Shown one piece after another: positions 2,985 to 47,167 of a stretch of 50,689 nt of DNA. The position numbers and the translations under genes are program-made. Source of the stretch: Haloarcula sp. DT43 (GTDB taxonomy: Archaea > Halobacteriota > Halobacteria > Halobacteriales > Haloarculaceae); NCBI RefSeq assembly GCF_037078405.1, contig NZ_JAYMGZ010000008.1:1-50689 (forward strand), written 5' to 3'. The notes beneath the pieces were generated by a model. That model was not told the DNA's origin. It was given only the letters and a program-made list of their open reading frames with translations, and searched no databases. Positions within the stretch are counted from its first letter, which is position 1. Each line of letters begins with the position of its first letter.

Positions 2985-3196
2985 TAGTGAAGGACAGTCA
3001 AGAACGCACCACCCATCGGGAATCACCACCGAAGGAGCATCAAGCGTCTATACAGCAGAACACCTATCCACGGCCCTGGTGTGATATCTTCGAGTTTGCG
3101 ATGAGATCTCAAAGTGTCCATACGCCAACAACCCTATAGTACAATCTCGGCTTGGTCGTACAGGTGGTTTTCTACCCGTTCAAGCACTATCGGTAA

Positions 3197-27433: not shown

Positions 27434-27760
27434 ATGTCTCGAACCACTGCCACCATTCCGGATGATCTAACGGACCTCATGGAGGGGGCGGTCAAAGCGG
27501 GCATCTTCGAAAATAAGAGCGACGCAATCCGCCATGTACTCCGGGAATACTTCGAGGAACACGAGAATGCACGGGTTGCGGCTGCTGTCTCATTGTATGA
27601 AGAGGAGCGAATTACGCTCGGGACTGCTGCTCGGCTTGCTGGGTTTAACCGCTTCGAGATGCGAGACATCCTTCGTGAGGAGGGTGTTGAACTTCGATTT
27701 GGACCGGAGGACATGGACGCCGCACGCGATGAAATAGACGTGGCTCGGAATCTCGAATGA
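27434..27760 (+). CDS. UPF0175-family antitoxin
   Basis: A 108-aa protein. An N-terminal ribbon-helix-helix-like part (TTATIPDDLTDLMEGAVKAG, NKSDAIRHVLREYFEEHENA) is followed by the UPF0175 core (AAVSLYEEERITLGTAARLA, FNRFEMRDILREEGVELRFG). UPF0175 proteins are antitoxins of PIN-type toxins. The stop overlaps the toxin start by 4 bp (ATGA), giving translational coupling. It likely neutralises the PIN protein and represses the operon. Confidence 0.85.
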   Translation: MSRTTATIPDDLTDLMEGAVKAGIFENKSDAIRHVLREYFEEHENARVAAAVSLYEEERITLGTAARLAGFNRFEMRDILREEGVELRFGPEDMDAARDEIDVARNLE

Positions 27761-28263
27761 CAGGTGCGCCTGCTAACGCGACCGTTCCCAATACAACTGT
27801 TCTATCGAACTTCGCGCAGGTGGATCATATCGAACTCATAGCGGACCTGCCACGACTCGTCACGGTTCCTGCTGTCCAGATGGAACTCACCGAAGGAGTT
27901 GAAACACATCGCTATCTCGAACACGCATTAACTGCGCTTGAAGGAGATATTCCTGTCGTTGAGCCATCAGCGGAGGCACACCAAATCGAGCAGTCTCTCT
28001 TGGAAACGCTTGACCCAGGTGAGGCTCAAGCACTGGCAGTTGCAGACGACGTTGCTGGAACGGTGATCACCGATGATGGTGATGCACGTGCGACTGCGAA
28101 TCACCGGGGCATCGAACTAACTGGCTCGATTGGGTTGCTTGTCCGTTCTGTTGAGGATGATCGAATTACAGCAACGACCGCAGACACGTATCTTAAACGC
28201 TGGATCGACGAGGCTGGGTTTCACTCACCCGCTCGGGATCTCGATGTGTTCCTCGACGAATAG
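27757..28263 (+). CDS. PIN-domain toxin (DUF3368-like)
   Basis: A 168-aa PIN-like nuclease. Visible acidic and fold positions: PNTTVLSNFAQVDHIELIAD (where most PIN proteins have a D at the first strand, here NTTVLSNF), LDPGEAQALAVADD and TVITDDGDARATANHRG (the DD of the third acidic cluster). The first Asp appears to be Asn (PNTT), as seen in some DUF3368 members. Expected target is RNA. It pairs with the UPF0175 gene and lies next to the origin, fitting a plasmid-stability module. Confidence 0.8.
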   Translation: MTGAPANATVPNTTVLSNFAQVDHIELIADLPRLVTVPAVQMELTEGVETHRYLEHALTALEGDIPVVEPSAEAHQIEQSLLETLDPGEAQALAVADDVAGTVITDDGDARATANHRGIELTGSIGLLVRSVEDDRITATTADTYLKRWIDEAGFHSPARDLDVFLDE

Positions 28264-28970: not shown

Positions 28971-28991
28971 ACCTCTTGTGAAAGATTGCCT

Positions 28992-30218
28992 ATGCGTCGG
29001 TTCGAGCGGAAGCAGAATATCTTCCGGAATAAAGACGCCCTGGGGGAGTCCTACCAACCGGAACGGATTGAGGAACGGGATGAAGAAATTGAGGAGTATA
29101 TGAACGCTCTCCAGCCAGTAATCGACGGGTGGGAGCCAAACAACATCTTTCTTTACGGGAATACCGGTGTCGGAAAAACGGCCGTCACTGACTTCCTTCT
29201 CGACAGACTCCAAGACGACGTCGCTGCATACGATGATATCAACCTCTCCATCATCTCCCTCAATTGTAAAACGCTCAATTCCTCGTATCAGGTCGCTGTG
29301 GAACTCGTAAATGAACTCCGACCGTCCGGTGGCGAGATCAGTTCAACCGGGTATCCACAGCAAACTGTGTTTAAAAAGCTCTATCAGGAGCTTGAGGCCA
29401 TTGGTGGGACCATTCTCATCGTGCTTGATGAGGTCGATTCAATCGGTGATCGGGATGAGCTACTCTATGAGCTCCCTCGAGCCAGGGCCAATGGGAATCT
29501 CGAGTCGGCAAAGGTCGGCGTTATTGGCATCAGCAATGATTTCAAATTTCGCGACCAGCTCGACCCCCGTGTTCAGGACACACTCTGTGAGCGGGAACTC
29601 CAGTTCCCCCCATACGATGCGACAGAACTGAAAAACATCCTCGAATCACGTGTCGAAGTCGCTGTCACAGATGGGTCAACCGATACTGGTGTGTTGCAGT
29701 TGTGTGCTGCCCTCGCGGCAAGAGACAGTGGCAGTGCCCGGCAGGCCCTTGATCTCCTTCGGTTAGGTGGTGAAATCGCGGAAAACCGGGAAGCTGAGAT
29801 GATCAGGGAAGAGCACATCGAGGATGCCCGCTCACAACTCGAACAAGAACGGGTCGAAGAGGGAATGCGCGAGTTGACCACGCATGGCCGTCTAGCTCTT
29901 TTGGCAGTTGTGTCGAAAGCAGCCAAAGAGGAAACGCCCTGTCGGACTCGTGACCTCTATGAGGAGTATCGGTCACTCTGTGAGTCGTCTGAAACCGATG
30001 CGTTAGGCCAGCGGTCGCTTCATAACCACCTTTCAGACCTGCGAATGTTAGGCATCCTCTCAGCGCATGAAAATCGAAGCGGTTCTCGTGGGAACTACTA
30101 CAATTACGAGGTTGACGTTCCGTTTACAAGTGCTGTTGAGGCGATGTCAGACGTCCTTCGATTGACAACAGAGATCGAGACAATCCGTGACATTGCCGCC
30201 ATGAACAAGGTTGGATGA
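28992..30218 (+). CDS. orc1: Orc1/Cdc6 replication initiator
   Basis: A 408-aa AAA+ initiator, normal length for the family. Walker A GNTGVGKTAV (about residue 56), Walker B LIVLDEVDSIG (about 148), sensor 1 VGVIGISNDFKFRD, and the arginine-finger/sensor 2 region near PYDATELKNILESRV and SARQALDLLRLGGEI are visible. The C-terminal winged helix follows (RDLYEEYRSLCES, LHNHLSDLRMLGIL). ATG 28992 fits the TATA box; an in-frame TTG at 28986 would add two residues. Flanked on both sides by origin-box-like repeats, it is the initiator of this replicon. Confidence 0.95.
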   Translation: MRRFERKQNIFRNKDALGESYQPERIEERDEEIEEYMNALQPVIDGWEPNNIFLYGNTGVGKTAVTDFLLDRLQDDVAAYDDINLSIISLNCKTLNSSYQVAVELVNELRPSGGEISSTGYPQQTVFKKLYQELEAIGGTILIVLDEVDSIGDRDELLYELPRARANGNLESAKVGVIGISNDFKFRDQLDPRVQDTLCERELQFPPYDATELKNILESRVEVAVTDGSTDTGVLQLCAALAARDSGSARQALDLLRLGGEIAENREAEMIREEHIEDARSQLEQERVEEGMRELTTHGRLALLAVVSKAAKEETPCRTRDLYEEYRSLCESSETDALGQRSLHNHLSDLRMLGILSAHENRSGSRGNYYNYEVDVPFTSAVEAMSDVLRLTTEIETIRDIAAMNKVG

Positions 30219-30220
30219 GG

Positions 30221-30369
30221 GGACACCACCGTTTCAAGTGAAAGTACGAATTAAGACTGGCAACGTTCTTCACTTGAAAGAGTGGTGTGTCTGACGGAAG
30301 ACGTTTCACTTGCAACAGTGGTGTGTCCGACGGCAGGTGGTTCACTTGTAACGATGGTGTGTCCTCACC
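30221..30369. repeat. Origin-box-like repeat cluster downstream of orc1 (four copies)
   Basis: Copies at 30221-30244 (inverted), 30267-30297, 30303-30333 and 30340-30369 share ttcacttg-aacagtggtgtgtc, and two continue into ygacgg. Spacing of the three direct copies is about 36-37 bp. They begin right after the orc1 stop codon. Together with copies upstream they define the origin; a melting region was not identified. Confidence 0.75.
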
Positions 30370-30537
30370 AGAACTGGCTCCTGCCACAATGAATAGCGCC
30401 GCTAAGTATCACGGTATCAGTCCGCGAGAAAAGACGGACGCCCGCAAACTCTTGCTTGGCTACGCCTGCCTCAAGGTCAAGAACAGAGATCGGTGAGATG
30501 ACTCTGGGCTCTTATCGTGGCATTCACCAACACTGTC

Positions 30538-30567
30538 GTTTCAGACGAACCCATGTGGGATTGAAGC
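30538..30567 (+). repeat. Solitary CRISPR repeat of the haloarchaeal type I-B kind
   Basis: The 30-bp sequence begins gtttcagacgaaccc and ends gtgggattgaagc. From memory this differs at only one position from the repeat of Haloferax/Haloarcula type I-B arrays. No second copy occurs within one or two spacer lengths on either side, nor elsewhere in the window as far as I can see, and there are no cas genes. It is therefore a lone repeat and not an array. Confidence 0.75.
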
Positions 30568-30580
30568 TATCTATACGAAT

Positions 30581-30662
30581 AGGGCTCACGCCCTGTCCCC
30601 TGCTGAGAGCTGTGCCGGCGCCGCGGCAGGTGCTGCCCAGCGGTAGCACCAAGGCCCTTGGT
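30581..30662. other. Cluster of hairpins next to the CRISPR repeat (possible structured RNA)
   Basis: Within 82 bp: agggc/gccct (30581-30594, loop 4), cctgc/gcagg (30599-30630), and accaag/cttggt (30648-30662, loop 3). No credible protein is encoded. It could be a structured RNA, or the 3-prime end of an IS200/IS605-type element, whose guide-RNA region is structured. Both readings are inference. Strand undetermined. Confidence 0.4.
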
Positions 30663-30787
30663 TCAGCGCGTTTTCTCTCGTCTCTCGACAATACCGCTCT
30701 TGGAGACCTTGCCTTTCTGGCGATAATCAACACGTGGATTGGTTTCAGGTGTTGCGTTGGTTAGTTTGCTCATCCTAGTTTGAGTGT

Positions 30788-30816
30788 TCACATACACCAC
30801 TGTTTCCGGAGTAACA
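30788..30816 (-). repeat. Origin-box-like repeat, inverted
   Basis: The reverse complement reads ttactccggaaacagtggtg followed by tatgtg, matching the origin-box consensus, just past the end of the YYYLQW gene. Confidence 0.6.
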
Positions 30817-30819
30817 TCC

Positions 30820-31182
30820 CTACGCTGGGCTGACCGGCGCCACGTACTGGCTCTTAACTTTCTCTCCGTCGCGCCACTGGAGGTAGTAGTACTCCCGATC
30901 GTCGATTGTCTTCGTCGTCAGCGTCCCCTTCGAGCGTGCGATCTCTGCCTGCTCGTACGCGTCGTCTATCTTCTCCTCCCAGTCGTCCTCGTCGTCTTCG
31001 CACTCCTCGGGCGCCTCGACGGCGACCGCGTCGTCCGTCTCGCTTGCTCCGAGCGCCACAGCCAGCTCGCTGACGGCGGCGACCGCCTGTTCGTACGCGT
31101 CGCGATCGTCTTGGCCGAGGGCCTCGGCGTCGATCCGCTTCAGCGCCGACAGGGCTTGGTGGGCGTATTCTTCGTCGCTCAC
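30820..31182 (-). CDS. Small origin-associated protein (YYYLQW family, DUF6788-like), copy 2
   Basis: A 120-aa acidic protein. Helical N-terminus (EYAHQALSALKRIDAEALGQ), acidic linker (EECEDDEDDWEEKIDDAYEQ), and the family C-terminus KGTLTTKTIDDREYYYLQW with VKSQYVAPVSPA. It is the best preserved paralogue of 12362-12727 and of the pseudogene at 28320. Origin-box-like repeats lie on both sides (30788, 31254) and the ctaaccaacacaa inverted repeat ends 4 bp before its start. Conservation limited to the C-terminus suggests this part binds the common partner or DNA site. Function unknown. Confidence 0.75.
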   Translation of the reverse strand: MSDEEYAHQALSALKRIDAEALGQDDRDAYEQAVAAVSELAVALGASETDDAVAVEAPEECEDDEDDWEEKIDDAYEQAEIARSKGTLTTKTIDDREYYYLQWRDGEKVKSQYVAPVSPA

Positions 31183-31185
31183 ACG

Positions 31186-31227
31186 CTAACCAACACAATC
31201 CAGAATAATAGGGTTTGTGTTGGTTAG
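31186..31227. promoter_or_regulatory. ctaaccaacacaa inverted repeat, copy 4
   Basis: ctaaccaacacaa (31186-31198) and ttgtgttggttag (31215-31227) are perfect 13-bp arms, spacer 16 bp, immediately upstream of the start at 31182. A half site gttggttag also occurs at 30756-30764. Confidence 0.75.
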
Positions 31228-31253
31228 GCCGAACCCGCCACTATCGATGTGTT

Positions 31254-31280
31254 CGCACACCCCACTGTTTCATGTGTAAC
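31254..31280 (-). repeat. Origin-box-like repeat, inverted, outermost
   Basis: The reverse complement reads ttacacatgaaacagtgggg followed by tgtgc. It is the right-most copy; together with 28699 it brackets about 2.6 kb. Confidence 0.6.
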
Positions 31281-31323
31281 AGCCGAAAAGAACGCCGCTA
31301 TTACCGTTTGGCGACTTATTAGC

Positions 31324-31584
31324 TTAGGCGTCGATGTCGCCCAGGACTTCCTCCAGCGTATCGCGTAGGGCTCTAGCCTCTTCGATGTCTAACTTCGCGC
31401 CCATTGTCTCGTCGTACGCGAGGGGCTTTCGAACAATAGCTTCGAGAGTGACTGTCTGTGATTCGGTTCCGACGTTGATATCGATCGGGAGTTCGGACTG
31501 CTGACTGCCGTTATCGACGTAGCCTTCAATCTCTCGCAGCGTCGTGTGGTTGTGTGCCACGCTGGCGGGGTTAGGCGTTGACAC
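31324..31584 (-). CDS. Small conserved-looking protein, unknown
   Basis: An 86-aa acidic protein (MSTPNPASVAHNHTTLREIE; ends ALRDTLEEVLGDIDA) with alternating beta-type segments (PIDINVGTESQTVTLEAIVR) and a C-terminal amphipathic helix. Base composition is typical of the surrounding genes. No family recognised. It is divergent from the par operon, with a 16-bp palindrome in the shared upstream region. Confidence 0.6.
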   Translation of the reverse strand: MSTPNPASVAHNHTTLREIEGYVDNGSQQSELPIDINVGTESQTVTLEAIVRKPLAYDETMGAKLDIEEARALRDTLEEVLGDIDA

Positions 31585-31617
31585 TTAAGAACGTTCGCTT
31601 ACCCTGCATATTGCAAC

Positions 31618-31633
31618 TATATTCGTACGAATA
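31618..31633. promoter_or_regulatory. 16-bp perfect palindrome upstream of the par operon
   Basis: atattcgtacgaatat at 31618-31633 is fully self-complementary and lies between the divergent gene at 31584 and parA (31691). Probably an operator. Confidence 0.5.
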
Positions 31634-31659
31634 TCGAATCAGTGTCTGACATACTTATT

Positions 31660-31703
31660 TGTATCTCGGATATGTATACAGTATCTGTATATGGTATCGG
31701 TGA
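31660..31703. repeat. par iterons, left cluster
   Basis: Repeats of the type tgtatct.g.atat (tgtatctcggatat, tgtataca, gtatctgtatatgg) run into the parA start codon. The same words recur downstream of the operon at 32948-32986. This is the expected layout of a centromere-like site or autoregulatory operator bound by the second par protein. Confidence 0.6.
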
Positions 31704-32530
31704 AACGAGCGGCCACGTATGTCGAAAAAGGCGGCGTTGGAAAGACGACCAGCGCGGCCCATATCGCCGTTGCAGCGCACGAACAGGGCGAAAACGTCCT
31801 GTTGGTTGACCTCGCTGGAACACAGAACGACCTCGCGACGCACTTCGGCCTCGATCTCGGCGAGGACGCCGAACGGATCGACGCGCCGATCTCCGCAGTC
31901 TTCGGCGACGACTGGGAGTTCCTCAAGGACAACGTCGACGACTTACTCGACCGCATGACCTTCGACACGGACGAGGGCCCCGACCTGATCCCCGCCGACC
32001 CAGGCCTCGGCGGCGCCGACAACAACCTCGCCAACGTCCCCCTGGAGGACCGCTTCGACAAGCTCGACGACTTCGTCGACGACCTCGTCGCGCCCGAGTA
32101 CGACCTCGTCATCTTCGACCTCCCCGGGAAGGAGGACAACATCGCCCTCAACGGGCTCTTCGCGGCCCGCGATGTCGTCGCGCCACTGAAGCCCGGCGCG
32201 TTCGAGCGCGACCAGCTCCGCAAGCTCGACGCGACGCTCGACGAAATCAGCGACGACCTCGACGTGGACCTCGGCCTGACGCTGGTCATCCCCACAATCA
32301 TCAACCAAAGCGAGAACCTCTCCGAAGAGTTCGTCGCGTACGTGCGCGAAGAGTTCCCTGAGGTCGTCGGCCACCCTGTCACGAAAACCGCCGACATCGG
32401 CAACAACCAGGACGAGGGCCGCACGCTCTACGCCGTCCCCGATGACGAGCTGTACTCGACAGGCGAGCGTGCCCGTGAATCGTACACCGCGAACACCGAA
32501 CAACTACTCGACACCCTCACCGAACGATGA
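31691..32530 (+). CDS. parA: ParA-family partition ATPase
   Basis: A 279-aa ParA/MinD-type ATPase. Deviant Walker A EKGGVGKTTSAAHIA (residues 12-26), Walker A-prime region VLLVDLAGTQNDLATHFG (usually a D-P there, here L-A-G), Walker B-like YDLVIFDLPGKEDN, and a C-terminal helix bundle (NLSEEFVAYVREEFPEVVGH). It should drive plasmid segregation by nucleotide-dependent DNA binding. First gene of a two-gene operon with a 4-bp overlap, flanked on both sides by iterons. The start lies inside the left iteron cluster, implying autoregulation. Confidence 0.9.
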   Translation: MVSVKRAATYVEKGGVGKTTSAAHIAVAAHEQGENVLLVDLAGTQNDLATHFGLDLGEDAERIDAPISAVFGDDWEFLKDNVDDLLDRMTFDTDEGPDLIPADPGLGGADNNLANVPLEDRFDKLDDFVDDLVAPEYDLVIFDLPGKEDNIALNGLFAARDVVAPLKPGAFERDQLRKLDATLDEISDDLDVDLGLTLVIPTIINQSENLSEEFVAYVREEFPEVVGHPVTKTADIGNNQDEGRTLYAVPDDELYSTGERARESYTANTEQLLDTLTER

Positions 32531-33537: not shown

Positions 33538-33801
33538 ATATAACCGGAAAATCGATTTTCGACTGTCTGACCATCTCTAGAGCCTATTCCTGTCAGAAAG
33601 AATCTATGGAAAGAAGTTGAGACTACACCGAGGTTAGCGGGGCAGTGATGCGTGGTTTCGGACGAATATGTGAGTAGAAACTACTTCAGATCGTCTCTTG
33701 AGCACCCATTCTTGTTATATTAGAAACCAATCCGGGATTCCCCGGGGCTGCACCCAGCGTCGCCACTGAGAAAACGGTGGTCGGTCGGACTGAGTGGCTT
33801 T
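33538..33801. other. Non-coding stretch before the transposase
   Basis: No gene found. A short GC hairpin, ccggg/cccgg (33732-33745), could be a terminator or part of the transposon end; I could not define terminal inverted repeats or a target duplication. Confidence 0.4.
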
Positions 33802-35478
33802 CTACCCGATTCCAGTCTCCTTCTTCAGCAGCGTCAGTGTGTTGTCCGCCGTCACCAGCGGCGAGTGTTCGTACTCACCGGTCAGCTCGACCTGTACCAG
33901 CAGATCGACTGCTCGCCAGATGGAGCACAACAGACACGCGAACGCGAAGTAGAAAAACCGAAGTACGAAATCCTTCGATGTCGTCGCGGCCATAAATCGC
34001 TTGATGGACTTGTAGCCGCTCTCGATCTCCCAGCGGTAGCCGTACTCCGTGAGGTGTCCGCTCCCCCGATTCGTCATGAACACCGAATACTGCCGGTGAT
34101 CGTCATGCTCTGAGTCCTCTTTCCGACGGTAGATCAGCGTCGTCTTGTGCCACTCGTTCTTCCCGAGATGGAGCTTCCGATCGGTCTCATACCGATCCTG
34201 GTCGCGCTGGAGCAATCGCTTAGCCTGGGCTTTCTCGCTGGTCTGCATCCGCTTGGGCACAACGTAGGAGAGTCCCCGCTGGCTAATCATCTCCAAAACG
34301 TGTTGACTGTCAAATTCTCGGTCCATCAGCACGTTATCGACGTGAACCAGGTCCTCGGCAGAATCAAGCAAGTCCTCTACGATCTCTTTGCGAGTCTCGC
34401 CTTTCCGTACCGGACGGGCATCAAGGACGAGCGGGACTGCGTTCCCGACCAGCTGGACTGTCGCCCACTGATAGGCGTACTCGTCGGTGTTCTCTTTCGT
34501 TCCGATGATCTCGTCCTCGTGGCCGGTTCGGTCGCCTGTGAAGGGATCGGCTTTGGTGATGTCGATGGCGACGATTCCTGCGCGGAAGAACTCCTCTGTC
34601 TCTGCGACCTCGTCAATGAGTTGCCGGACCGCCTGTCGATACATCTCTCGAATCTGCTCGGTAGAGAGATCACGAATGTGGTCGCGATGAGCGTGCCCGA
34701 GTGGTGTCCGCTCCCGCGTCGACTCGTGGACGAAGCTGCGAGCGCCTTCGTTGGCGGCCAAGTTCTCACGAAGCCCGAGATACGTCTGTAAGCTCCAGTA
34801 GGCGTTCTCGTGGATCTCACAGCCACCGCCACGATTGAGCGAGAACGCGGGGAAGACGACGTGGCTGACATGGTCAGTGATCTCCTCAGCCTGTTTTAGG
34901 ACTAATTGGTCGTCGGGGTCTGAGTCCTCTCGATCGTCATCGTGGTGCCGAAGCTTTCGCTCCGGGTCACGTGGAACCGCGACACCTGCATTCTGGGCTT
35001 TGATGAGGATTGTTCGAGCCGCCGTCTCGACTGTCTCTCGGAGGTCAGCGGTGAAACGCTCGTGCCAGCTGCGCCACAGCGTCGACTGGTCTGGAATCGT
35101 CTCGAAAGCCAGTTGCTCGTAGAGGTCAGAGCGATGATCGAGGTAGTCGACGAGTGCTGTTTCGTGCTCCCACCCGTGGAGTTCCTTCAGAACAAACACC
35201 CGAAAGAGGGATTTCATCTTGTATCGTGTCGCGCCCCCATAACGGTCGTGAGCGGCGAACCGGAAGTAGGCCAGTGGGTATTGACATACAAAGTTTTCCA
35301 CCGACCCGTGATGGTCGTGTTTGAACCACCGCTGCCCAACCGCTCGGATATCCTCCTGAAGCGCATCGAGTGAACCCCGATTGTAGAGTGGCGTCGAGTC
35401 GTAGGCAGGCCACTCAGTATACGGAGCCTGTGCAATATCCCGAAAGACGGCACGTCGAGAGTCAGACATTAGAACCAT
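33802..35478 (-). CDS. DDE-type transposase of a haloarchaeal IS
   Basis: A full-length 558-aa transposase (ATG 35478 or 35469). DDE features: AGIVAIDITKADPF (first Asp), VDNVLMDREFDSQHV (second Asp) and YRWEIESGYKSIKRF (final Glu, in a Y-R-x-E...K signature of IS4-like elements). Its length exceeds that of most IS4/IS5 transposases. The reading frame is intact, so the element could be active. The IS family name is not certain, and IS ends were not found by eye. Confidence 0.85.
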   Translation of the reverse strand: MVLMSDSRRAVFRDIAQAPYTEWPAYDSTPLYNRGSLDALQEDIRAVGQRWFKHDHHGSVENFVCQYPLAYFRFAAHDRYGGATRYKMKSLFRVFVLKELHGWEHETALVDYLDHRSDLYEQLAFETIPDQSTLWRSWHERFTADLRETVETAARTILIKAQNAGVAVPRDPERKLRHHDDDREDSDPDDQLVLKQAEEITDHVSHVVFPAFSLNRGGGCEIHENAYWSLQTYLGLRENLAANEGARSFVHESTRERTPLGHAHRDHIRDLSTEQIREMYRQAVRQLIDEVAETEEFFRAGIVAIDITKADPFTGDRTGHEDEIIGTKENTDEYAYQWATVQLVGNAVPLVLDARPVRKGETRKEIVEDLLDSAEDLVHVDNVLMDREFDSQHVLEMISQRGLSYVVPKRMQTSEKAQAKRLLQRDQDRYETDRKLHLGKNEWHKTTLIYRRKEDSEHDDHRQYSVFMTNRGSGHLTEYGYRWEIESGYKSIKRFMAATTSKDFVLRFFYFAFACLLCSIWRAVDLLVQVELTGEYEHSPLVTADNTLTLLKKETGIG

Positions 35479-35705
35479 CAGTACTGGCTATGTGAAACCT
35501 CGAAGTGTGATACAAACGGTGTGCTGAATATAGTGGATGAGTTCAGCAGAGAGACTTCGTTTCTTTCGGATACTTCCTGCTGAATTACCAGAGGGGGTGC
35601 GAACTGGTCAATTTCGTCTCCGGTCCATTGTCCACCGTCGGTGACGAGTCGACACTCGGGCTGAAGTGCGACATGGTTATCCCTGTCTGGAGAGAAGGTA
35701 AGGGA

Positions 35706-35888
35706 ATGGCGCCCTCTATTTCCACAACTGAGCGACAGCCGATCGGCAAGGTGTTGCTCTATTGCCCTGGGTGTAGTCACGAAAGTCGCATTAATGACGA
35801 CTGGCTCATCCGCGTCCTCGCTGATTCTCAGACCTACGAGTGTCCGAATTGTGGTACAATGATACCCGCTCAAATCAATAAGAATTGA
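35706..35888 (+). CDS. Small zinc-ribbon protein (DUF8106-like)
   Basis: A 60-aa protein from ATG 35706 (MAPSISTTERQPIGK). Zinc ribbon YCPGCSHESRINDDWLIRVL followed by YECPNCGTMI, i.e. two CxxC knuckles about 25 residues apart. This pattern occurs in very small haloarchaeal proteins of unknown role. An upstream frame extension (from 35628) looks non-coding. Confidence 0.65.
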   Translation: MAPSISTTERQPIGKVLLYCPGCSHESRINDDWLIRVLADSQTYECPNCGTMIPAQINKN

Positions 35889-36116
35889 CCAAGCGGAGAG
35901 GTGAATCCCTTCAGAGGGAGTAGCGTAAGCCCTCTATCTGCCAAATGTGACGAAACTCGGAGGTATTGAAATCGGTGTGCAAGATTGAGCAGCTGAAACA
36001 GCCGCTCGGTATGACTGCTGTACTGACCGACTCGCCCACCCCTGAAACAGTCTACTCCACCGACCCGAGTGTGTGCCAACACGCGGGTTCGGCCCCTCAA
36101 TGTGAACCTTATTCTG

Positions 36117-36446
36117 ATGATTCGGGTGAAAAACTTCGGGGCTTTTCGTCGTGGAGCACGAATCAGACCTGTGGAGTACGAAATCGGGGCGGAGGAATCG
36201 GTCAGCACGGCCGTCGTACGCGCGGTGAGCGCTGTCGAAGGCCGTAAACCGTGTTCCCTGCGACCACTGGCGGACGTCGTCGATCCGACTGCGCTAGATT
36301 CGTTGTTCGACCCGCGGTACGACGGAACTCCTCGGACGGGCGGACGTCTCTCGTTCGTGTACAGCGATTGTTGCATCACGATCGACAATGGCGAGTATCT
36401 CACGCTCCAGTTACTCGGAGACCGTTTCCGCGACGAACGCGATTAA
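36117..36446 (+). CDS. HalOD1 output-domain protein
   Basis: About 109 aa. The HalOD1 domain is visible as ESVSTAVVRAVSAVEGRKPC, LADVVDPTALDSLFDPRYDG and GGRLSFVYSDCCITIDNGEY. The N-terminal start is uncertain: ATG 36117 and GTG 36069 are in frame. Stand-alone HalOD1 proteins are very common in haloarchaea and are thought to act as output modules in signalling, but the mechanism is unknown. It lies just before two TrmB genes. Confidence 0.75.
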   Translation: MIRVKNFGAFRRGARIRPVEYEIGAEESVSTAVVRAVSAVEGRKPCSLRPLADVVDPTALDSLFDPRYDGTPRTGGRLSFVYSDCCITIDNGEYLTLQLLGDRFRDERD

Positions 36447-36503
36447 GAATCCGCTGACAGTCGCGTCCGCTAACGGAGTAGCCAATAGCCGCTCGTCGCG
36501 AGA

Positions 36504-37304
36504 TTACTGCTTGGGATCACGAGCGGTCAGCAACCCCTGGGCCATGAGTCGCCGGGCGATGACGACCAGCCCATTCCCGAATCCTTCGCCGAAGATCGCT
36601 TGTTCCTCCTTGGTGCCTGGCATGAGCGAACTCACGAGAATCGTCGAGCGGTCGACCAGCAGGAGCCGGCCGATCGCCGTCTCGTTTTCAGTAGCGTCCT
36701 CACCGTGTAACCACTCCAGGCCAGAGACGAACGTCATCGCGTCCGGCACGGCCGTCTGGATCTGCTCTTGCAGCGATTCCGTCAGCGCGCCGATGAGAAG
36801 GTCGACCCCGTTACCGACGTCGTTGAGAGTGGCAACGAGATCATCGGTCAGCAGTGACTCGTCGCCGACGACAAGAACGACCTCCTCGGCCGCGTTCTCG
36901 ATGAGTTGGTCCGCCCGATTTTCGATCGCGTCCCGCCCGGACATCGCCCATATCTGCTGGACGGGGGTCTCGTCTTCCTCGACGATTTCGACCATATCCA
37001 GCGCATCGTGGAGGCGCTCGACCCGGTCTTCGTACTGGTCGCGCAGGGTCTCGGTCGCCTCGTCGAGCGGAACCGCCCGGAACTGCTGCGGGCTCGAATG
37101 CTGTATCTCGACCAGCCCTTGCGCCTCCAGTACTCGAATCGCATCGTACACCCGCGTTCGGGGAACCTCCGTCATCTCACTCAATTTTTTTGCTGTTCCC
37201 GTGTGGAGGCGGGACAGGCCGACGAAGCATCGCGCCTCGTATTCTTTCAAGCCGAGTTGCTGGAGGACCTCGATCGCTTCCTCCAGACTATCATTGGTAG
37301 TCAT
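36504..37304 (-). CDS. TrmB-family transcriptional regulator (1)
   Basis: A 266-aa protein from ATG 37304 (MTTNDSLEEAIEVLQQLGLK). N-terminal winged helix of TrmB type (GLKEYEARCFVGLSRLHTGT, VPRTRVYDAIRVLEAQGLVE, SSPQQFRAVPLDEATETL), a coiled linker, and a C-terminal sensor domain (DAIENRADQLIENAAEEVVL, VDLLIGALTESLQEQIQ). Ligand unknown; family members often sense sugars. It is paralogous to, and divergent from, the gene at 37694. Confidence 0.88.
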   Translation of the reverse strand: MTTNDSLEEAIEVLQQLGLKEYEARCFVGLSRLHTGTAKKLSEMTEVPRTRVYDAIRVLEAQGLVEIQHSSPQQFRAVPLDEATETLRDQYEDRVERLHDALDMVEIVEEDETPVQQIWAMSGRDAIENRADQLIENAAEEVVLVVGDESLLTDDLVATLNDVGNGVDLLIGALTESLQEQIQTAVPDAMTFVSGLEWLHGEDATENETAIGRLLLVDRSTILVSSLMPGTKEEQAIFGEGFGNGLVVIARRLMAQGLLTARDPKQ

Positions 37305-37693
37305 GTGTCCCAACCTCACAGGGTATATTCCAGTGAGTCTCTAATTAGTTCGCTCCCGACACGGATATGCATTGTCACTCAGTTCATGACTTCGAACTCG
37401 GACAGTGTGCGTGATGGGTGGTAATGTCGTCCAAAACCGCTTCAGGAACGAGTTTCCAAAACCTATTGTGAGTCTCCCAGTGACTACAGGTCGATACAAA
37501 TTTCACTCGACGGAGGCGCCCACGAACGGACTTTTTGAGATTCACTCGCTTAATCACAAAAAATATTTATCGGGCGAGACCGATTTCGCTCCTAGTACGC
37601 GGTCCAGTTCTGTCTCCCGACCACCACACTACTGCGTGCCGACTCGGTCACTCCCCGTGGCTGGGCTCACAGCGACCCACATTCGCCAGATCG
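37305..37693. promoter_or_regulatory. Divergent intergenic region between two TrmB genes
   Basis: A 389-bp region with no gene of its own. A TATA-like aatatttatcg (37562-37572) points toward the rightward TrmB gene and would give a leader of about 100 nt. No clear palindromic operator was found by eye. Confidence 0.4.
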
Positions 37694-38491
37694 ATGACCA
37701 ACAATCCAGACGAGGACCCACAGTCCGTCGCAATCGAGCAACTCGAACGGTTCGGGTTGAGTGCCTACGCCGCGCGGACGTTCGTCGCGCTCGCTAGTCT
37801 CGGCACGGGGACAGCCAGAGACGTCAGCCAGGTTTCAGCGGTACCGCGAACTCGGGTGTACGACGCGATCGACGAGCTACACGACCGGGGGCTCGTCGAT
37901 ATCCTCCAGTCGTCGCCCAAGCAGTTCTGGGCGATCTCCGGCGAAACCGCGAGTCGGACGTTCGAACACGAGCTACAGCACCGCACGGAACTCCTTCGGT
38001 CGGCGCTGAGGGAACTCGAACCCATCGAACAACGAGCCGAGCAGCGCGGCGTCTGGACGGTAGACGGGCAGACGTCAGTCACGGAACGAGTCCTGGAGTT
38101 CTTCGCGAATGCGGAAGAGGAGATCGTCTACATGACCGTCGAGGACCTCCTCACCGAGGACCTGATAGAGGGGTTAGGCGAGGCCGCAGAACGGGGCGTT
38201 TCGATAAAGCTCGCCGGAGTGTCGACGGATGTCCAGGAACGCATTCAGGACGATATCCCCGGCGCGACGATGTTCGAGTCGCTGTGGGTCTGGTCGGACA
38301 CGTCGGCAGGACGACTCATGATGGTCGACGGTCGGAAGACACTCGTGAGTGCGCTCGTCAACGGTGCGGACGCGAGTCCGTCCGATCCGCGGTCCGAAAC
38401 CGCCATCTGGGGCGAGGGTGAGGCGAACAGTCTGGTCGTGGTTCTGAAAGCGATTTTCACCTGGCGACTCGAGACGGAGGAGCGATCTTGA
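37694..38491 (+). CDS. TrmB-family transcriptional regulator (2)
   Basis: A 265-aa protein from ATG 37694 (MTNNPDEDPQSVAIEQLERF). Same architecture as the neighbour: winged helix (GLSAYAARTFVALASLGTGT, VPRTRVYDAIDELHDRGLVD, SSPKQFWAISGETASRTFEH) and sensor domain (EEEIVYMTVEDLLTEDLIEG, GEGEANSLVVVLKAIF). The two share long identical runs in the helix-turn-helix, implying an old duplication and similar DNA sites. An upstream extension to 37535 is open but not protein-like. Confidence 0.88.
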   Translation: MTNNPDEDPQSVAIEQLERFGLSAYAARTFVALASLGTGTARDVSQVSAVPRTRVYDAIDELHDRGLVDILQSSPKQFWAISGETASRTFEHELQHRTELLRSALRELEPIEQRAEQRGVWTVDGQTSVTERVLEFFANAEEEIVYMTVEDLLTEDLIEGLGEAAERGVSIKLAGVSTDVQERIQDDIPGATMFESLWVWSDTSAGRLMMVDGRKTLVSALVNGADASPSDPRSETAIWGEGEANSLVVVLKAIFTWRLETEERS

Positions 38492-38516
38492 CGGAATCCA
38501 GTGGGAGACGTTGACC

Positions 38517-38852
38517 TCAGGGAGTCGACAGCGACACTTCTTCAGGGAGCGAGTCGAGCACCGTTTCGAGCTGTTCGTCGGGAGTGTACCGGACGGAACC
38601 GCTTCTGTGTTCGAATTCGAGGACGCCGTGCTCTGCCAACTTCGGCAGGTGGACGTGGTGTAGTTGGATGGCGAGTGCTTCTCGGTCCTGCGCTGGGCCG
38701 TCTTTTGAGTCAGAACCACTACTGTGGAACTGTTCGACGAGTTCGTCAACCGTGGTAGTCCCGGTAGCCTCGTGGCGCAAGTGGTGGATGATCCGGCGTC
38801 GGTGCCTATCGTCGACGAACTGGAGCCATGCGTCGAGACTGTGGGTCGTCAT
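38517..38852 (-). CDS. DUF7344-like winged-helix protein
   Basis: A 111-aa protein (MTTHSLDAWLQFVDDRHRRR) with a DUF7344-type winged helix: RRIIHHLRHEATGTTTVDEL, then IQLHHVHLPKLAEHGVLEFE and a wing ending RSGSVRYTPDEQLETVL. Probably a DNA-binding regulator. It is convergent with the second TrmB gene (25 bp apart), a frequent haloarchaeal arrangement. Confidence 0.75.
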   Translation of the reverse strand: MTTHSLDAWLQFVDDRHRRRIIHHLRHEATGTTTVDELVEQFHSSGSDSKDGPAQDREALAIQLHHVHLPKLAEHGVLEFEHRSGSVRYTPDEQLETVLDSLPEEVSLSTP

Positions 38853-39000
38853 ACTGCCTTACTCTCTACCCATGTACATTAACTGTAGAGATTTTTACGA
38901 TTGAGAAGATTTTGATTATGTGAGTGACGCCCGAACCCTGTACATCCCTGCGTCACTGGTCACTTGGTTGCTGTACTCTCTCACTACGTCACCCGGTTAA

Positions 39001-39264
39001 TCAGAACTCATCTGATCGGTAAGATGTCGTCACTCGAATCCTCCGTGAACCGCACATTACGGCTCTACCAGGGTGCAGATAAAGCTGTGTCAACACCAGT
39101 TCTTTTCGGCTTCGTTGAAATGCGTTGATGATTATCGGTTCCCCCAGTAGTGTGACCGAATGCAGGCCCTCCCGAAGTCGCCGTTGCTCCGACTTGGCTC
39201 GGCGAACTGTTGCTCGGTACTCTCCGAAGTCCTCGAACCGATGGTAGTACCGGATCTCGACCAC
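39001..39264 (-). CDS. Hypothetical protein
   Basis: An 87-aa basic protein (MVEIRYYHRFEDFGEYRATV), rich in Arg. No family recognised; being basic is unusual for a haloarchaeal cytosolic protein. Its end (tctgattaaccgggtga on the minus strand) is nearly repeated at 43720-43736, suggesting a duplicated remnant. It may not be a working gene. Confidence 0.35.
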   Translation of the reverse strand: MVEIRYYHRFEDFGEYRATVRRAKSEQRRLREGLHSVTLLGEPIIINAFQRSRKELVLTQLYLHPGRAVMCGSRRIRVTTSYRSDEF

Positions 39265-39297
39265 GGGACTATCCGTCTGGAGACCCTATGCTAGAGG

Positions 39298-39897
39298 ATG
39301 GCAGATAATAGGAGCGGTCGAGACAAGCAAGCGCGAGACGCTGAGAGACGCCAGCAAGAGCGTGACGTCGCCACGGAACTGGAGCGAGGAGACGAAAAAG
39401 AGCCACCGGTCGAGGCGGCGGAACTCGGCGATTTCGAGGTGGAGCTCGAAGCAATGAACTTCCCGGCGACTGGGGCCGAGATCGTCGAGACGTTCGGCGA
39501 CCACACGATCGAATCGGTCACGGGGAGCTACACGATCGAGGATCTCGTCCCGGAGACGGACGAGGAGACGTTCGACTCCCCGGCTGCCGTGCGAGTGCAG
39601 GTACAGCGGCCGACAGTTGCTGCGGCGATGAAACGAGTCGTCGAATCCAGTAAGACGCTTCGAAATACGGAGTTCAGTTGGACACAGCGCAAAGCGTACG
39701 AGATGACCTTCAAGGAACTCGAATCGATCGACGCCGATGACGACGACGAAGGGATCACAGCCATCAGCGACTGGATCGTCGATCAAATCCACGAGAAGGA
39801 AAAACTCCCGGCATCCCGGGCTGTGCGCCGACAAGCGGCGAAGTTCTGTCGTGGGAACGGCTACCAGGTACGGGTCGACGAGTGGCTCGGCATCTAG
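39298..39897 (+). CDS. DUF5789-like protein
   Basis: A 199-aa protein. The N-terminus is charged (ADNRSGRDKQARDAERRQQE) and probably coiled. The middle matches the DUF5789 pattern: FPATGAEIVETFGDHTIESV, TIEDLVPETDEETFDSPAAV. The C-terminal third is helical (WTQRKAYEMTFKELESIDAD; ISDWIVDQIHEKEKLPASRA). Function unknown. Divergent from the hypothetical at 39001. Confidence 0.65.
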   Translation: MADNRSGRDKQARDAERRQQERDVATELERGDEKEPPVEAAELGDFEVELEAMNFPATGAEIVETFGDHTIESVTGSYTIEDLVPETDEETFDSPAAVRVQVQRPTVAAAMKRVVESSKTLRNTEFSWTQRKAYEMTFKELESIDADDDDEGITAISDWIVDQIHEKEKLPASRAVRRQAAKFCRGNGYQVRVDEWLGI

Positions 39898-40073
39898 AGC
39901 GACGGTCACGGGCACCCGTGGAAGCGACTGCTGGAACGCGCCAGGCGTGATCGATACGCATACCTCTCAAACGGCTGTTTCAACAGTTTCGAGGCGGAGC
40001 CCCCGGCCTCAAGACAATGGCCACAGGAAGGGGTATTCGGGATCAAGATCACCAATACCCACGCATTCTGTTG

Positions 40074-40471
40074 CTAGTCGTCTTCAGCTGTTGAAGACGT
40101 GCTGGCATGCAGGGGCTTGACCTTGATACTGCCAGAGCTACTTGCGGTGACTTCGCACCCCTGATACTCGAAGGTGAGGTGTACATCACCGACAGCGGCT
40201 CTACGAGGGGTGACGAGTGAATCGAGAGCGTCCGGGTCTACGCTTGCGTGCAGTGGGTCCATGTCGGCGGGTCCGTATCTGAGGCTGCTGCGACGACGCT
40301 TACGACAGCCATACTCGCGACTTCATCGGTAACGCTGAAATGGGCCTGGTAGAGTTCCTCCTCCGCGTGGTATTCTATCGACTCAAATTCACAGAGACCC
40401 CGCAAGCGAGCGAGTGTTCGGTCTGGGATTCTGTTCTTGGTGGAGTGCGGAGAGTCATCATCGATCATCAC
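40074..40471 (-). pseudogene. HalOD1 gene with a single-base frameshift
   Basis: The first half (from 40471) reads VASMAVVSVVAAASDTDPPT and runs off into a stop. The second half, in another frame, reads MDPLHASVDPDALDSLVTPR, DVHLTFEYQGCEVTASSSGS and IKV. Joined, they form one normal HalOD1 domain (the N-terminal helix, the DPDALD turn, the FEY strand). A one-base deletion near 40260 explains the break. Either a recent pseudogene or a sequence error. Confidence 0.75.
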
Positions 40472-40546
40472 CTACTATGCTCGTCCAACTTGGGTGACGT
40501 TGGCCATTTCATACACAATAGAGTATTTAAGGAGCACGCGAGGAAG

Positions 40547-41191
40547 TCAAGAGCGCGACTCGGTGAGTGCTTGTTCGATGAGTCGGCGATTCCCTCGTCG
40601 CAGGCGGGCACCGAGGGCTTGCTGTGACACATCGAGTTCATCAGCCATCTCTGCCAGCGTCGTGTCTCGCGGTGAATTGAAGTACCCGCGGTCATACGCC
40701 AGCGTCAGGGCTTCACGTTGGCCATCAGTCAGGTCCAGCTTCGCATCCAACGGGCGGAGTGCGTGGAGTTCCGTCAAGGTGACCCGGACGCCGTGGTCGT
40801 GACAGTAGTCTCGAAACGCCGCGATGGCCTCTCGGCTTTCGCCGCGAAGTTCGAACGTCCACTCTTCTGCTGTCCCGATCGCTGATAGGAGGACGATTTC
40901 AGGCACGTTCAGGGCGTCGAGTACGCTGTCGTACCCCGAGGTCCACTCACACCGCAACAGATACTCCGATTCGACGTGATCGATAGCGCGGATGTCTCGG
41001 ACGCCCGGGTGCTCAGAGAACTGATCGACGATCGAATCGGACTCCGTACCGCGGACCCAGAAGTAGGGCACCACACCTTTTGTAACCGGAATAACCCGTT
41101 CGAGTTGCACGACCACGTCTGGTAACTCAGTGAAGACGGTACCTAAAGGGAACTCGTTAGATGGGAGTGTGAATTCGGCGTCAGTAGCCAT
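40547..41191 (-). CDS. Bacterio-opsin activator-type HTH regulator (HTH_10)
   Basis: A 214-aa protein from ATG 41191 (MATDAEFTLPSNEFPLGTVF). The N-terminal domain (to about 140) has the beta-rich pattern of Bat-type regulators (DHVESEYLLRCEWTSGYDSV, EEWTFELRGESREAIAAFRD). The C-terminal HTH_10 reads LTDGQREALTLAYDRGYFNS, DTTLAEMADELDVSQQALGA, RLRRGNRRLIEQAL. This large haloarchaeal family regulates light, oxygen and stress genes; its target here is unknown. An upstream start at 41233 adds 14 residues and is less likely. Confidence 0.85.
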   Translation of the reverse strand: MATDAEFTLPSNEFPLGTVFTELPDVVVQLERVIPVTKGVVPYFWVRGTESDSIVDQFSEHPGVRDIRAIDHVESEYLLRCEWTSGYDSVLDALNVPEIVLLSAIGTAEEWTFELRGESREAIAAFRDYCHDHGVRVTLTELHALRPLDAKLDLTDGQREALTLAYDRGYFNSPRDTTLAEMADELDVSQQALGARLRRGNRRLIEQALTESRS

Positions 41192-41204
41192 GCACCCAGA
41201 TAGG

Positions 41205-41371
41205 TGCTGCGTAGGTATGAGTGCGTTCTTCAATTGAGGTTGATCGTCGTAGCAACTGAATACCGGCGATTTCGAACCAGAACATCTTCGATGCTTTTCT
41301 GTAATCCAAAAGCGCGCTGTATTCAGCAGAGTCGGCGAAACCTATCACCAGCTGAGGGTTTCAACAAGGCC
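41205..41371 (-). mobile_element. IS-end or MITE-like remnant (copy B)
   Basis: Read on the minus strand from 41371 this begins ggccttgttgaaaccctcag and continues through gaatacagcgcgc. It matches copy A at 4821-4890 over about 65 bp. It ends abruptly next to a broken gene for an RCK_C domain, so the insertion probably destroyed that gene. Confidence 0.5.
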
Positions 41372-41389
41372 GAACTAGTGACGATCACG

Positions 41390-41588
41390 GGCCGACGCAG
41401 CACCGTTCGTGGGTGAGTCACTCGCGACCGTTCGTCGCGATTCTGAGCGCGGGTTGACCGTAGTCGGGCTGGTTCGTGACGGAACAGTCTCCACAGACGA
41501 ACACGCCATAGTTGAGCCGGGGGATGAGGTGTTCGTCGCCGGCAGCGACGAGGGGATACAGCGGTTCGAGCGAACCGTGCATCCTTGA
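41390..41588 (+). pseudogene. C-terminal RCK_C (TrkA-C) fragment
   Basis: The plus-strand frame reads APFVGESLATVRRDSERGLT, VVGLVRDGTVSTDEHAIVEP and GDEVFVAGSDEGIQRFERTV before a stop at 41586. This is the typical RCK_C domain of K+ uptake or channel regulatory subunits. No start or N-terminal Rossmann domain remains; the IS remnant B sits directly upstream. Confidence 0.7.
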
Positions 41589-41710
41589 GAATCGAACCAA
41601 TTCGACTGACGCACTCCGCTGCTCTCGATATGTCGGTCGTGTCTTAGTTTTGTGTTTGCTGCCCGAGGGTGACGGACTGGTGGTGACTGGTTACTGAACT
41701 CAGGATACAC

Positions 41711-42964
41711 CTACAGTAGCAAACTGAAGAGGAGATAGGAGCCGATGACAGAGAGCGAGGGTGCCAAAATCCAGAGGATGACGATTCGGCGTGTGGCGGC
41801 CGGGTCGAACAAGCTCTCTGCGCTGAGCTCGTCGATGTGTTCCTCCCCGATCGGGGGAACCGGTCTGTCTCTGTCCCGTCGCCCCGTCCGCTCGCCAGCC
41901 GTACTGCTCGCCAGCTCGCCGATGGTCGGGCTCGTCGGTCTGTCATCCGACCCCGTAGACGCCGCGAGGGCACCCGTGGTGAGGCCCGCAGCCAACTCAC
42001 GCTCGGTACGTCGGGTGGCGATCTCCGCGAGCGTGGCGGCGCGACTCGCTCGTCCCCAGCCGAGTCCGATGATACAGCAGGTCGTGCTCACCGCGAGACT
42101 CGCCGGAATACCGAGATACGAGAGGACCGTGATGATGGTCGCCCCGATGCTCGAGACGACGAGTGCGGCCAGGATGGGCAGGTCGGTGATCCCATCACTG
42201 ACCGTCGCGAGCGTCCGCCGGGCGATCGTGAACCCACCGAGGCCGATAGTAGCGACGGCGAGCACGATGCCTTGCTCGATGGTGATCGACCCGTTGCCGA
42301 CGAGCGGCGCGACCGCATTCGCGGCGTTCGACGCCCCTGCACTGAACCCCATGTAACACGCGATTGCAATGACCAGAAACGAGCCGACGAGGTCACGGGG
42401 GGCTGCGTTCGTATTGAGGCGGAGGCGCGGAACCCTCCCCGAGCGATCGAGCTGGACGAGGTGCCGCTCGAAGCGCGTGAACGACATATGGGCCTCTAAC
42501 TGGGGGTACAGATATCGGCCGACGATGGCACCAGTCACGAATCCGAGGAGTGGCGCAACGATCCACGCGGAGACGATCGTGAACATCAACGCCTCGTTGA
42601 GCGAGTCCGTTGCCAGACCGAGCCCGACGATTGCACCCACGGCAGTCATCGACGTCGAGGCGGGAACCCCGTAGAGATTCGAGAGCAAGAGTGCCAGACC
42701 GCTGAAGAACAGAACACCGACGGTCGCTATTGGCGAGAACTGCACCGCCGGAACGATGCCGTCGCTCATGGTGACGATGACGTTCCGACCGACCGTCCAC
42801 GCACCCAGAAACGCGAAGAGCGTGAACAGGGTTGCGGCAGTGGCCTTTCTGACGAGGCGACTCCCGACAGCAGGTCCGAACGCGACACCGGTCGACGACC
42901 CGCCGATGTTGAATCCGACGAAGGCAGCCACGAGCAATCCCACGACAACGAGTGTAGATACCAT
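41711..42964 (-). CDS. pitA: Inorganic phosphate transporter (PiT/PHO4 family)
   Basis: A 417-aa membrane protein from ATG 42964 (MVSTLVVVGLLVAAFVGFNI). Two inverted PHO4 halves: FNIGGSSTGVAFGPAVGSRL (the N-terminal GxN...GxxxG signature) and GFSAGASNAANAVAPLVGNG in the second half. About ten helices, and a cytosolic loop of about 75 residues near the C-terminus (about 315-390). PiT proteins import phosphate with a cation. Single gene; upstream lies an aldehyde dehydrogenase fragment. Confidence 0.9.
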   Translation of the reverse strand: MVSTLVVVGLLVAAFVGFNIGGSSTGVAFGPAVGSRLVRKATAATLFTLFAFLGAWTVGRNVIVTMSDGIVPAVQFSPIATVGVLFFSGLALLLSNLYGVPASTSMTAVGAIVGLGLATDSLNEALMFTIVSAWIVAPLLGFVTGAIVGRYLYPQLEAHMSFTRFERHLVQLDRSGRVPRLRLNTNAAPRDLVGSFLVIAIACYMGFSAGASNAANAVAPLVGNGSITIEQGIVLAVATIGLGGFTIARRTLATVSDGITDLPILAALVVSSIGATIITVLSYLGIPASLAVSTTCCIIGLGWGRASRAATLAEIATRRTERELAAGLTTGALAASTGSDDRPTSPTIGELASSTAGERTGRRDRDRPVPPIGEEHIDELSAESLFDPAATRRIVILWILAPSLSVIGSYLLFSLLL

Positions 42965-43090
42965 ATTCAAGCGGTCCGTGTTCCTATAGTTCGGCGCGGA
43001 GACGTAATTCCGTGTCCCCCCTGGATCGTCGATGGACGTCGATGTATTCGACCCGGCGGCTGATACCGATACGGACCGGTCTCTCACTCA

Positions 43091-43410
43091 GTGGTGGGTC
43101 CCATCGGGAGCGGTGCTGTTCGCGAAGATGGCTTGACTTGGCCATCTACATCTCTCGTCATCTGCGAGCGCTTGCGAGACCGGTTTTCCCATCTCGCGGG
43201 TCATCGTTTCGGCGTACTTGCGCTTGTTCTCTCGCAGGACCTCACCGGCAGTTGCAAGCAGTTGTTCGCGTTCCCGAACCGGCCGGAGGCGCCGGTCTTC
43301 GAACGCTGGCGACGGACTCGGTCGTGAGCGCGACCGCCATCTGGTTCGCCGTGTCCAAGTCGCCGGGTCGAGGGGTACGTGTATCACCGTTGGAGTAAGT
43401 CTACAGGATG
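43091..43410 (-). pseudogene. Aldehyde dehydrogenase N-terminal fragment
   Basis: Two frames of the minus strand carry family sequence: DTANQMAVAL, then after a shift RPVREREQLLATAGEVLREN, KRKYAETMTREMGKPVSQAL and ADDERCRW. MTxEMGKP...A...xxKCxW is the classic N-terminal signature of succinate-semialdehyde-type dehydrogenases. The catalytic half is absent and the frame is broken. Confidence 0.75.
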
Positions 43411-43619
43411 AACGTGACAATGGCAAGAACGACGAAGATGATGACCAGCCATTTGGCGATATCCATACTGATCCCAGCGACACCTCGGGCACCGAGCACC
43501 GCTGCGACGATCGCGAGAATCAAAAAGAGGACTGCAAGCTCAATGAAACCACCCCCGAACTGCAACGGCACCGCCTGGATCGAGACCGCGCTATCCAGAA
43601 CTCCGTATGAGGTTACCAT
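43401..43619 (-). CDS. DUF1328-like small membrane protein
   Basis: A 72-aa protein with two hydrophobic helices: [20 protein letters not shown] and [20 protein letters not shown], with the [13 protein letters not shown] loop diagnostic of DUF1328 (YtjA-type). Function unknown; bacterial relatives are stress-linked membrane peptides. It overlaps the end of the ALDH remnant. Confidence 0.8.
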
Positions 43620-43793
43620 AGCATATCTACGGCTCTGGAGTATGTTAAACCCCCGACATATTCATTCCTATCCTGTTTTTGAATAACCGGGTGACTCTGT
43701 CCGGGTAGACTCAATTCACCCGATTAATCAGAATACATTCTTGTTCGGAAAATCGGGGCTACTATTCTGTCGTCAGCCGTATTGAGCTGTACT

Positions 43794-44291
43794 GTGTCCC
43801 GAGACGACTACGAAGCGGAACTGTCTGCCGGTCGAGAGGAGATCGCATCCATACTAAGCGGTGTGGCGGAGGGAATCCGCACAGGTGCCGTTCGGTTAGG
43901 CGAGAGCCCGGATGCCGTGACTGTCGATACACCAGACGAACTCACGCTGGAAATCGAACTCGAAACCGAAGAGGACGCGATGAGTCTGGAACTGGAGCTG
44001 GAGTGGACCGTATCGAGTGAAGCGTCTCCTGTTTCGTCCCTCGACGTTACTCCAGAGGGAGAGGACGAGGAGGTTGCGCTTTTGGGAGCCACTGATGGAG
44101 CACAATCACTGGCTCGATTCGAAGTCTACCGGGCTCGAGATGAGGAATGGCGCTGGCGACTCCGTCATCGAAACGGGAATATCATTGCGAGCAGTGGCGA
44201 GGGGTACACTCACAAACACAATGCCCTGAAAGGCCTCCGGAGTGTGATAGCGAATTCGGCAGACGCAGCAATAACTGAAGAGATATGGTAG
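43794..44291 (+). CDS. Amphi-Trp plus DUF1508 (HVO_2922-like) protein
   Basis: A 165-aa protein from GTG 43794 (MSRDDYEAELSAGREEIASI). Residues 5-75 fit an amphi-Trp domain (LSGVAEGIRTGAVRLGESPD, ELTLEIELETEEDAMSLELE, LEW). The C-terminal part is a DUF1508 repeat (ARFEVYRARDEEWRWRLRHR, NGNIIASSGEGYTHKHNALK). Domains of this kind occur in small haloarchaeal proteins that may bind other proteins or surfaces; fusion of the two is common. Function unknown. Confidence 0.8.
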   Translation: MSRDDYEAELSAGREEIASILSGVAEGIRTGAVRLGESPDAVTVDTPDELTLEIELETEEDAMSLELELEWTVSSEASPVSSLDVTPEGEDEEVALLGATDGAQSLARFEVYRARDEEWRWRLRHRNGNIIASSGEGYTHKHNALKGLRSVIANSADAAITEEIW

Positions 44292-44370
44292 AGATAGGTA
44301 ATCTCATACTTGATCGACTGAATACGAGGTCCGCCGATGGGTCGCTGGCGCCTGGCCACTTGGCCGAACG

Positions 44371-44709: not shown

Positions 44710-44731
44710 CCAACGGGGGGTAAAGACACGC

Positions 44732-45982: not shown

Positions 45983-46000
45983 TTTCTCTTATCAGATTGC

Positions 46001-47152: not shown

Positions 47153-47167
47153 GGAGGTGTGTTCAAT

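Follow-up and report, generated by a model that had tools for sequence, protein, structure and literature searches.

A single type I-B CRISPR repeat in the origin region of a Haloarcula replicon is very probably the deletion scar of a plasmid-borne type I-B CRISPR-Cas locus, which lay between the Orc1/ORB origin and parA. The repeat is identical to those of an array on a sister plasmid, pHsi540, and occupies the same position in its replicon; it lies beside the relic of a gene that borders the pHsi540 array, and the window holds no other array or cas remnant. We infer from this that a complete locus was once present on the plasmid's ancestor. The DNA analyzed here, referred to as the window in the following, is a stretch of 50,689 bp from Haloarcula sp. 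DT43 and represents the entire contig C8 of a 3.75-Mb genome in 19 contigs.

The repeat (GTTTCAGACGAACCCATGTGGGATTGAAGC, 30 nt, plus strand) aligns with the curated Rfam family CRISPR-DR24 (RF01337) over its full length, covering model positions 1-30 of 30 with 38.1 bits at a gathering score of 35, and thus belongs to the type I-B haloarchaeal repeats. The near-identity to these repeats asserted in the original prediction therefore does not break down on alignment, but is borne out far beyond chance: it is the sole Rfam match in the whole window and the only window site with three or fewer mismatches to this sequence (expected 0.00 in 100 shuffles). The further claim that it occurs just once is likewise correct, as no second copy is found in the window even if up to 10 substitutions are allowed. 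Within 100 bp on either side, neither a partial nor a second repeat is present; the best scores in these flanks, 13-15 of 30 positions, correspond to the level of shuffled sequences.

The exact 30-mer is rare. It is found in one of the 392 genomes of the order, the window's own, so that we rejected the end of an insertion sequence conserved in many genomes, or another mobile repeat, as its source. No exact copy exists in the genome_contigs records, and just one of 72,556 plasmid records, pHsi540 of Haloarcula sinaiiensis, contains it at full length; the other two plasmid records with at least 99% identity are bacterial partial matches of 17-18 bases and are not counted as full-length.

The surroundings of the repeat identify the locus as the origin region of a plasmid-type replicon, as originally predicted, since it is enclosed by an orc1/cdc6 gene, ORB-like repeats and a ParA gene (Table 1). 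The contig as such is not demonstrably a closed plasmid, because a perfect 119-bp inverted repeat forms its two ends (1-119 and 50571-50689). Behind a tyrosine recombinase gene (49160-50470), homology to pHsi540 breaks off exactly at the start of the second copy. In comparison with this plasmid, a 15.4-kb insertion (33609-49032) follows parA in the window, with a transposase, a TrmB-like regulator, a PHO4-family transporter, and Na/H and Na/Ca exchangers; its edges share the motif TCTATGG, close inside of which lie the inverted sequences GTTGAGACT and AGTCTCAAC. Just upstream of orc (27434-28263), a gene pair resembles the PADLOC candidate defence family PDC-S70 (best E 1e-20) and looks, by its layout, like an antitoxin and a PIN-like toxin.

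Table 1. Features of the origin region around the lone repeat (window coordinates)
Feature	Position	Strand	Evidence
orc1/cdc6 replication initiator gene	28986..30218	+	TIGR02928, 470.7 bits
ORB-like origin repeats, one inverted and three direct, 36-bp spacing	30223..30376		Repeat search; conserved after orc in pHsi540, pNG500 and pNYT2
Relic of the 3' end of the small gene located between ORBs and array A in pHsi540	30491..30529	+	31/39 identical, ungapped
Lone type I-B CRISPR repeat	30538..30567	+	Rfam CRISPR-DR24; 30/30 identical to array A repeats of pHsi540
210-bp stretch between the lone repeat and resumed homology, source not found	30568..30777		No match beyond chance
Block of resumed homology to pHsi540, pNG500 and pNYT2	30778..31294		77.1% to pHsi540
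ParA-type partition ATPase gene, right-hand landmark	31691..32530	+	Pfam AAA_31, CbiA

The plasmid with the identical repeat, pHsi540 of H. sinaiiensis ATCC 33800 (NZ_CP073368.1), is also the one whose Orc protein is closest to that of the window (97.1% identity), followed by pNG500 (96.8%) and pNYT2 (96.6%). It harbors a type I-B locus at 410-426 kb and, read in the direction of the window, displays the order orc, ORB repeats, small gene, array A, cas operon, array B, homologous block and ParA. Array A runs on the minus strand and consists of 22 repeats, 18 of which are identical to the lone repeat; array B runs on the plus strand and consists of 57 repeats, most of them one mismatch away from it. 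The cas operon between the two arrays is complete (cas6-cas8b-cas7-cas5-cas3-cas4-cas1-cas2). About 54-55 bp after the last array B repeat begins the block that is homologous to positions 30778-31294 of the window, and it is followed by a ParA gene in pHsi540 as well as in pNG500. The arrays and cas genes of pHsi540 thus fill the very interval between the ORBs and the pre-parA block that holds the lone repeat in the window.

Consequently, both features by which we define a relic of a pHsi540-type locus, the same repeat variant and the same position between homologous flanks, are present, and the suggestion of an array remnant, one of several in the original prediction, is supported, as the corresponding place of the sister plasmid has the identical repeat in an array that adjoins a full cas operon. 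The two loci share the 30-nt repeat, the replicon family, the interval between ORBs and parA, and the small gene on the left; they differ in that pHsi540 has two arrays and eight cas genes, whereas the window lacks cas genes and is left with a single repeat and 39 bp of the small gene.

The left-hand landmarks that the window has in common with pHsi540 end at about position 30393, and only the 39-bp gene relic precedes the repeat thereafter. This relic also aligns with pNG500 and pNYT2, with scores that none of 300 shuffles reach. As the repeat starts just 8 bp after it, one end of the deletion appears to lie inside the small gene. For the same reason, the repeat is preceded at promoter distance by old coding sequence and not by a CRISPR leader, and the upstream DNA has no similarity to the leader regions of pHsi540. 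On the right, the 210-bp stretch does not resemble array, leader or cas DNA, and searches with it against plasmids, phages and 342 haloarchaeal genomes returned nothing beyond chance; weak matches of 22-47 bp to the flanks in these genomes are short words at unrelated places and were judged to be chance. The block that follows contains the right-hand ORB-like repeats and an open reading frame on the minus strand (30820-31182). The repeat itself is spanned by a mechanically called open reading frame of 102 residues (30456-30764), and we regard it as intergenic on account of its neighbours and the lack of homology.

Three observations speak against a scar: the lone repeat runs opposite to the array that it matches in sequence, as described below; the 210 bp to its right match nothing; and pNG500 and pNYT2, two sister plasmids, are free of CRISPR at this place and have different cargo there. 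The second of these, together with a small cluster of decayed repeats elsewhere in the host genome (C6:22790-22946), would suit a scenario in which a plasmid without a CRISPR-Cas history captured a short array fragment at a break, so that the repeat was transplanted alone. In this case, however, it would be an accident that the exact repeat variant and the exact locus are shared with pHsi540 and found nowhere else in the collections searched, so we consider such a transplantation very unlikely.

As to the sister plasmids, the replicon of the window branches outside pHsi540, pNG500 and pNYT2. Therefore, either the locus is ancestral and underwent repeated losses, or it was repeatedly acquired at this spot, and in both cases we would still interpret the lone repeat as a remnant. 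In this one plasmid family, a defence locus seems to come and go between the origin and parA: pHsi540 has CRISPR-Cas, pNG500 and pNYT2 have different cargo, and the window has a scar. Arrays beside origins are not confined to pHsi540, either, since a CRISPR array is found less than 1 kb from a different orc1/cdc6 gene (C1:864678-868508, 869318-870511) in a further genome of this genus.

If the lone repeat is a scar, the following course of events can be envisaged. An ancestral plasmid of this Haloarcula family would have carried the type I-B locus between origin and parA; one breakpoint of a deletion would have cut the small gene that adjoins the array, the other would have left a single intact repeat, and the 210-bp stretch of untraced source would fill the rest of the gap. 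One further step has to be accommodated, as the lone repeat combines the sequence of array A, which lies on the minus strand, with the plus-strand orientation of array B, and thus runs opposite to the array that it matches. An orientation in agreement with the sequence-matched array would be expected of a simple deletion, but is not strictly defining for a relic. An inversion or a changed array B must therefore be assumed: recombination between the oppositely oriented arrays A and B could have inverted the cas cassette and moved A-type repeats to the plus strand. This inversion would explain the orientation, although no intermediate was found.

The preservation of the repeat is compatible with such a loss. 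Between the window and pHsi540, 12% of sites differ in the orc region, 18% in the ORB block and 23.5% in the right-hand block, yet the repeat is identical. If only the branch of the window had drifted, the chance of zero change in 30 bases would be about 0.16 to 0.03, depending on the rate used. This fits a loss some time after the split from pHsi540, with the array still kept uniform until then, and the identity of the repeat does not require selection on the lone copy.

The original prediction had also described the repeat as being without array or cas genes. This holds for the window, where tblastn searches with eight Cas proteins detected no cas remnants, but not for the host, which encodes type I-B cas6, cas8b, cas7, cas5, cas3, cas4 and cas1 on contig C5, together with an array of 62 repeats (GTTTCAGACGAACCCTCGTGGGGTTGAAGC) and another of 26 (GTTACAGACGGACCCTTGGGCGGTTGAAGC). 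A functional type I-B locus, understood as at least two repeats with spacers and cas genes beside the array, is accordingly not found in the window, which has one repeat and whose host keeps its cas genes on C5. A look at the host's own repeat sequences, as had been proposed, reveals three mismatches between the lone repeat and the repeat of the first array (27/30 identical) and more to that of the second. With at least three base differences, the lone repeat was not recently copied from the host's arrays, and we rejected these as its origin. Among the matches listed for the 86 host spacers against the window, there is nothing beyond chance words. Elsewhere in the host genome, at C6:22790-22946, two degenerate type I-B repeats are separated by 97 bp that include a third copy in a more decayed state, which makes this cluster a second CRISPR relic.

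The presence of a type I-B system in the host raises the question of whether the repeat might act on it. By sequence, the lone repeat would qualify as a solitary repeat unit as defined for SRUFinder, i.e. as an intergenic match with at least 90% identity and coverage to a known repeat, at least 41.1 bits and no second or partial repeat within 100 bp: it matches the pHsi540 repeat at 30 of 30 positions with 60.0 bits. Some members of this class are proven RNA anti-CRISPRs (Racr; Camara-Wilpert et al., 2023, PMC10651486), and a Racr-like element in the window would be a small RNA mimic that ties up host Cas6/Cas7 and thereby protects the plasmid. Like the published units, the lone repeat is a single full-length, intergenic repeat on a mobile element in a host of matching subtype, and it is intact. 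It differs from them in that synteny explains it as a remnant: the full array with an identical repeat at the same place in a sister plasmid accounts for it without selection. Furthermore, its match to the lost plasmid array (30/30) is better than that to the main array of the host (27/30), the 50 bp upstream, where the promoter of a Racr would be expected, contain the relic of coding sequence described above, and we found the combination of this lone repeat and its flanks in no relative. A Racr-like role is therefore improbable, and as the scar that we take it to be, the lone repeat presumably has no specific function today.

A scar might nevertheless acquire such a role secondarily. Haloarchaeal Cas6 accepts the repeats of sister species (PMC9458426), so that host Cas6 could probably cut the lone repeat if it were transcribed. 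In principle, the surviving repeat could have turned, or be turning, into a plasmid-borne decoy whose transcript is cut by chromosomal Cas6, which would weaken the type I-B immunity that acts on the plasmid. A decoy of Cas6/Cascade had been among the readings of the original prediction, but has no positive evidence in its favour. Our searches returned neither promoter evidence for the repeat nor a protospacer match for its flanks, and we give this conversion little credence; if true, it would show that RNA anti-CRISPRs can arise from lost immune loci.

Another possibility raised in the original prediction, a mini-array or single-guide unit that uses host Cas proteins to make one crRNA-like RNA against a competing plasmid or virus, has virus-borne precedents in archaea (PMC11656645). 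Such a unit should contain a spacer that lies between two repeats and matches a competitor, but there is only one repeat here, and when the flanks were taken as spacers and compared with plasmids, phages and haloarchaeal genomes, much as had been suggested, neither of them gave more than chance matches. We thus regard this possibility as very doubtful.

Still less probable is a relationship to the CreTA modules of haloarchaea, in which a CreA-like RNA would use a spacer-like stretch after the repeat to guide Cascade to the repression of a toxin RNA. These modules are known from Haloarcula, where one or two ectopic repeats are located beside type I-B cas loci (PMC9458426), and the lone repeat resembles them in being a repeat outside an array in the same genus. 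However, the repeats of CreA are of degenerate sequence, and both cas genes and a toxin RNA are linked to them (PMC9458426), whereas the repeat of the window is identical to a functional array repeat and has no linked cas locus. Moreover, positions 29500-32000 offer the 36 bp after it neither a target next to a TTC PAM nor a seed match that exceeds shuffles; the best creT candidate in this range has a seed run of 8 and the PAM CAG, which is within the range of shuffled sequences.

As a deletion scar, the lone repeat represents a case of gene loss and not a new device, and its general interest is modest. It does suggest that a sequence that passes the published criteria for solitary repeat units, the source pool of RNA anti-CRISPR candidates, can turn out to be nothing but a deletion scar when a sister plasmid with the intact locus comes to light. 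For surveys of solitary repeats, a comparison of synteny with relatives is an inexpensive control, to be made before candidate anti-CRISPR RNAs are counted.

Solitary repeats are also found outside this plasmid family. In our scans of haloviruses, two records contained arrays, one contained a short array and another a true single repeat, all unrelated to the locus in the window. The 70,466-bp viral contig IMGVR_UViG_3300025333_000002 contains a single repeat of the haloarchaeal type I-B kind (GTTTCAGACGTACCCTCGTGGGGTTGAAGC, 2727-2756 of the piece examined) and no other full repeat within the 7.7 kb examined, which makes it a better candidate for a virus-borne solitary repeat unit than the repeat of the window. 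The plasmid NZ_CP132295.1 of Natronococcus sp. AD-5 has a single repeat (GTTACAGACGAACCCTCGTGGGGTTGAAGC, 3001-3030 of the piece) with no second copy in the 6 kb examined. Finally, the plasmids of Natribaculum breve and N. luteum, which are 93% identical over 2.7 kb, carry the same solitary repeat (GTTTCAGACGAACCCTTGTGAGGTTGAAGC) in the same place (3001-3030 of the pieces examined), so that a solitary repeat has been kept in two species.
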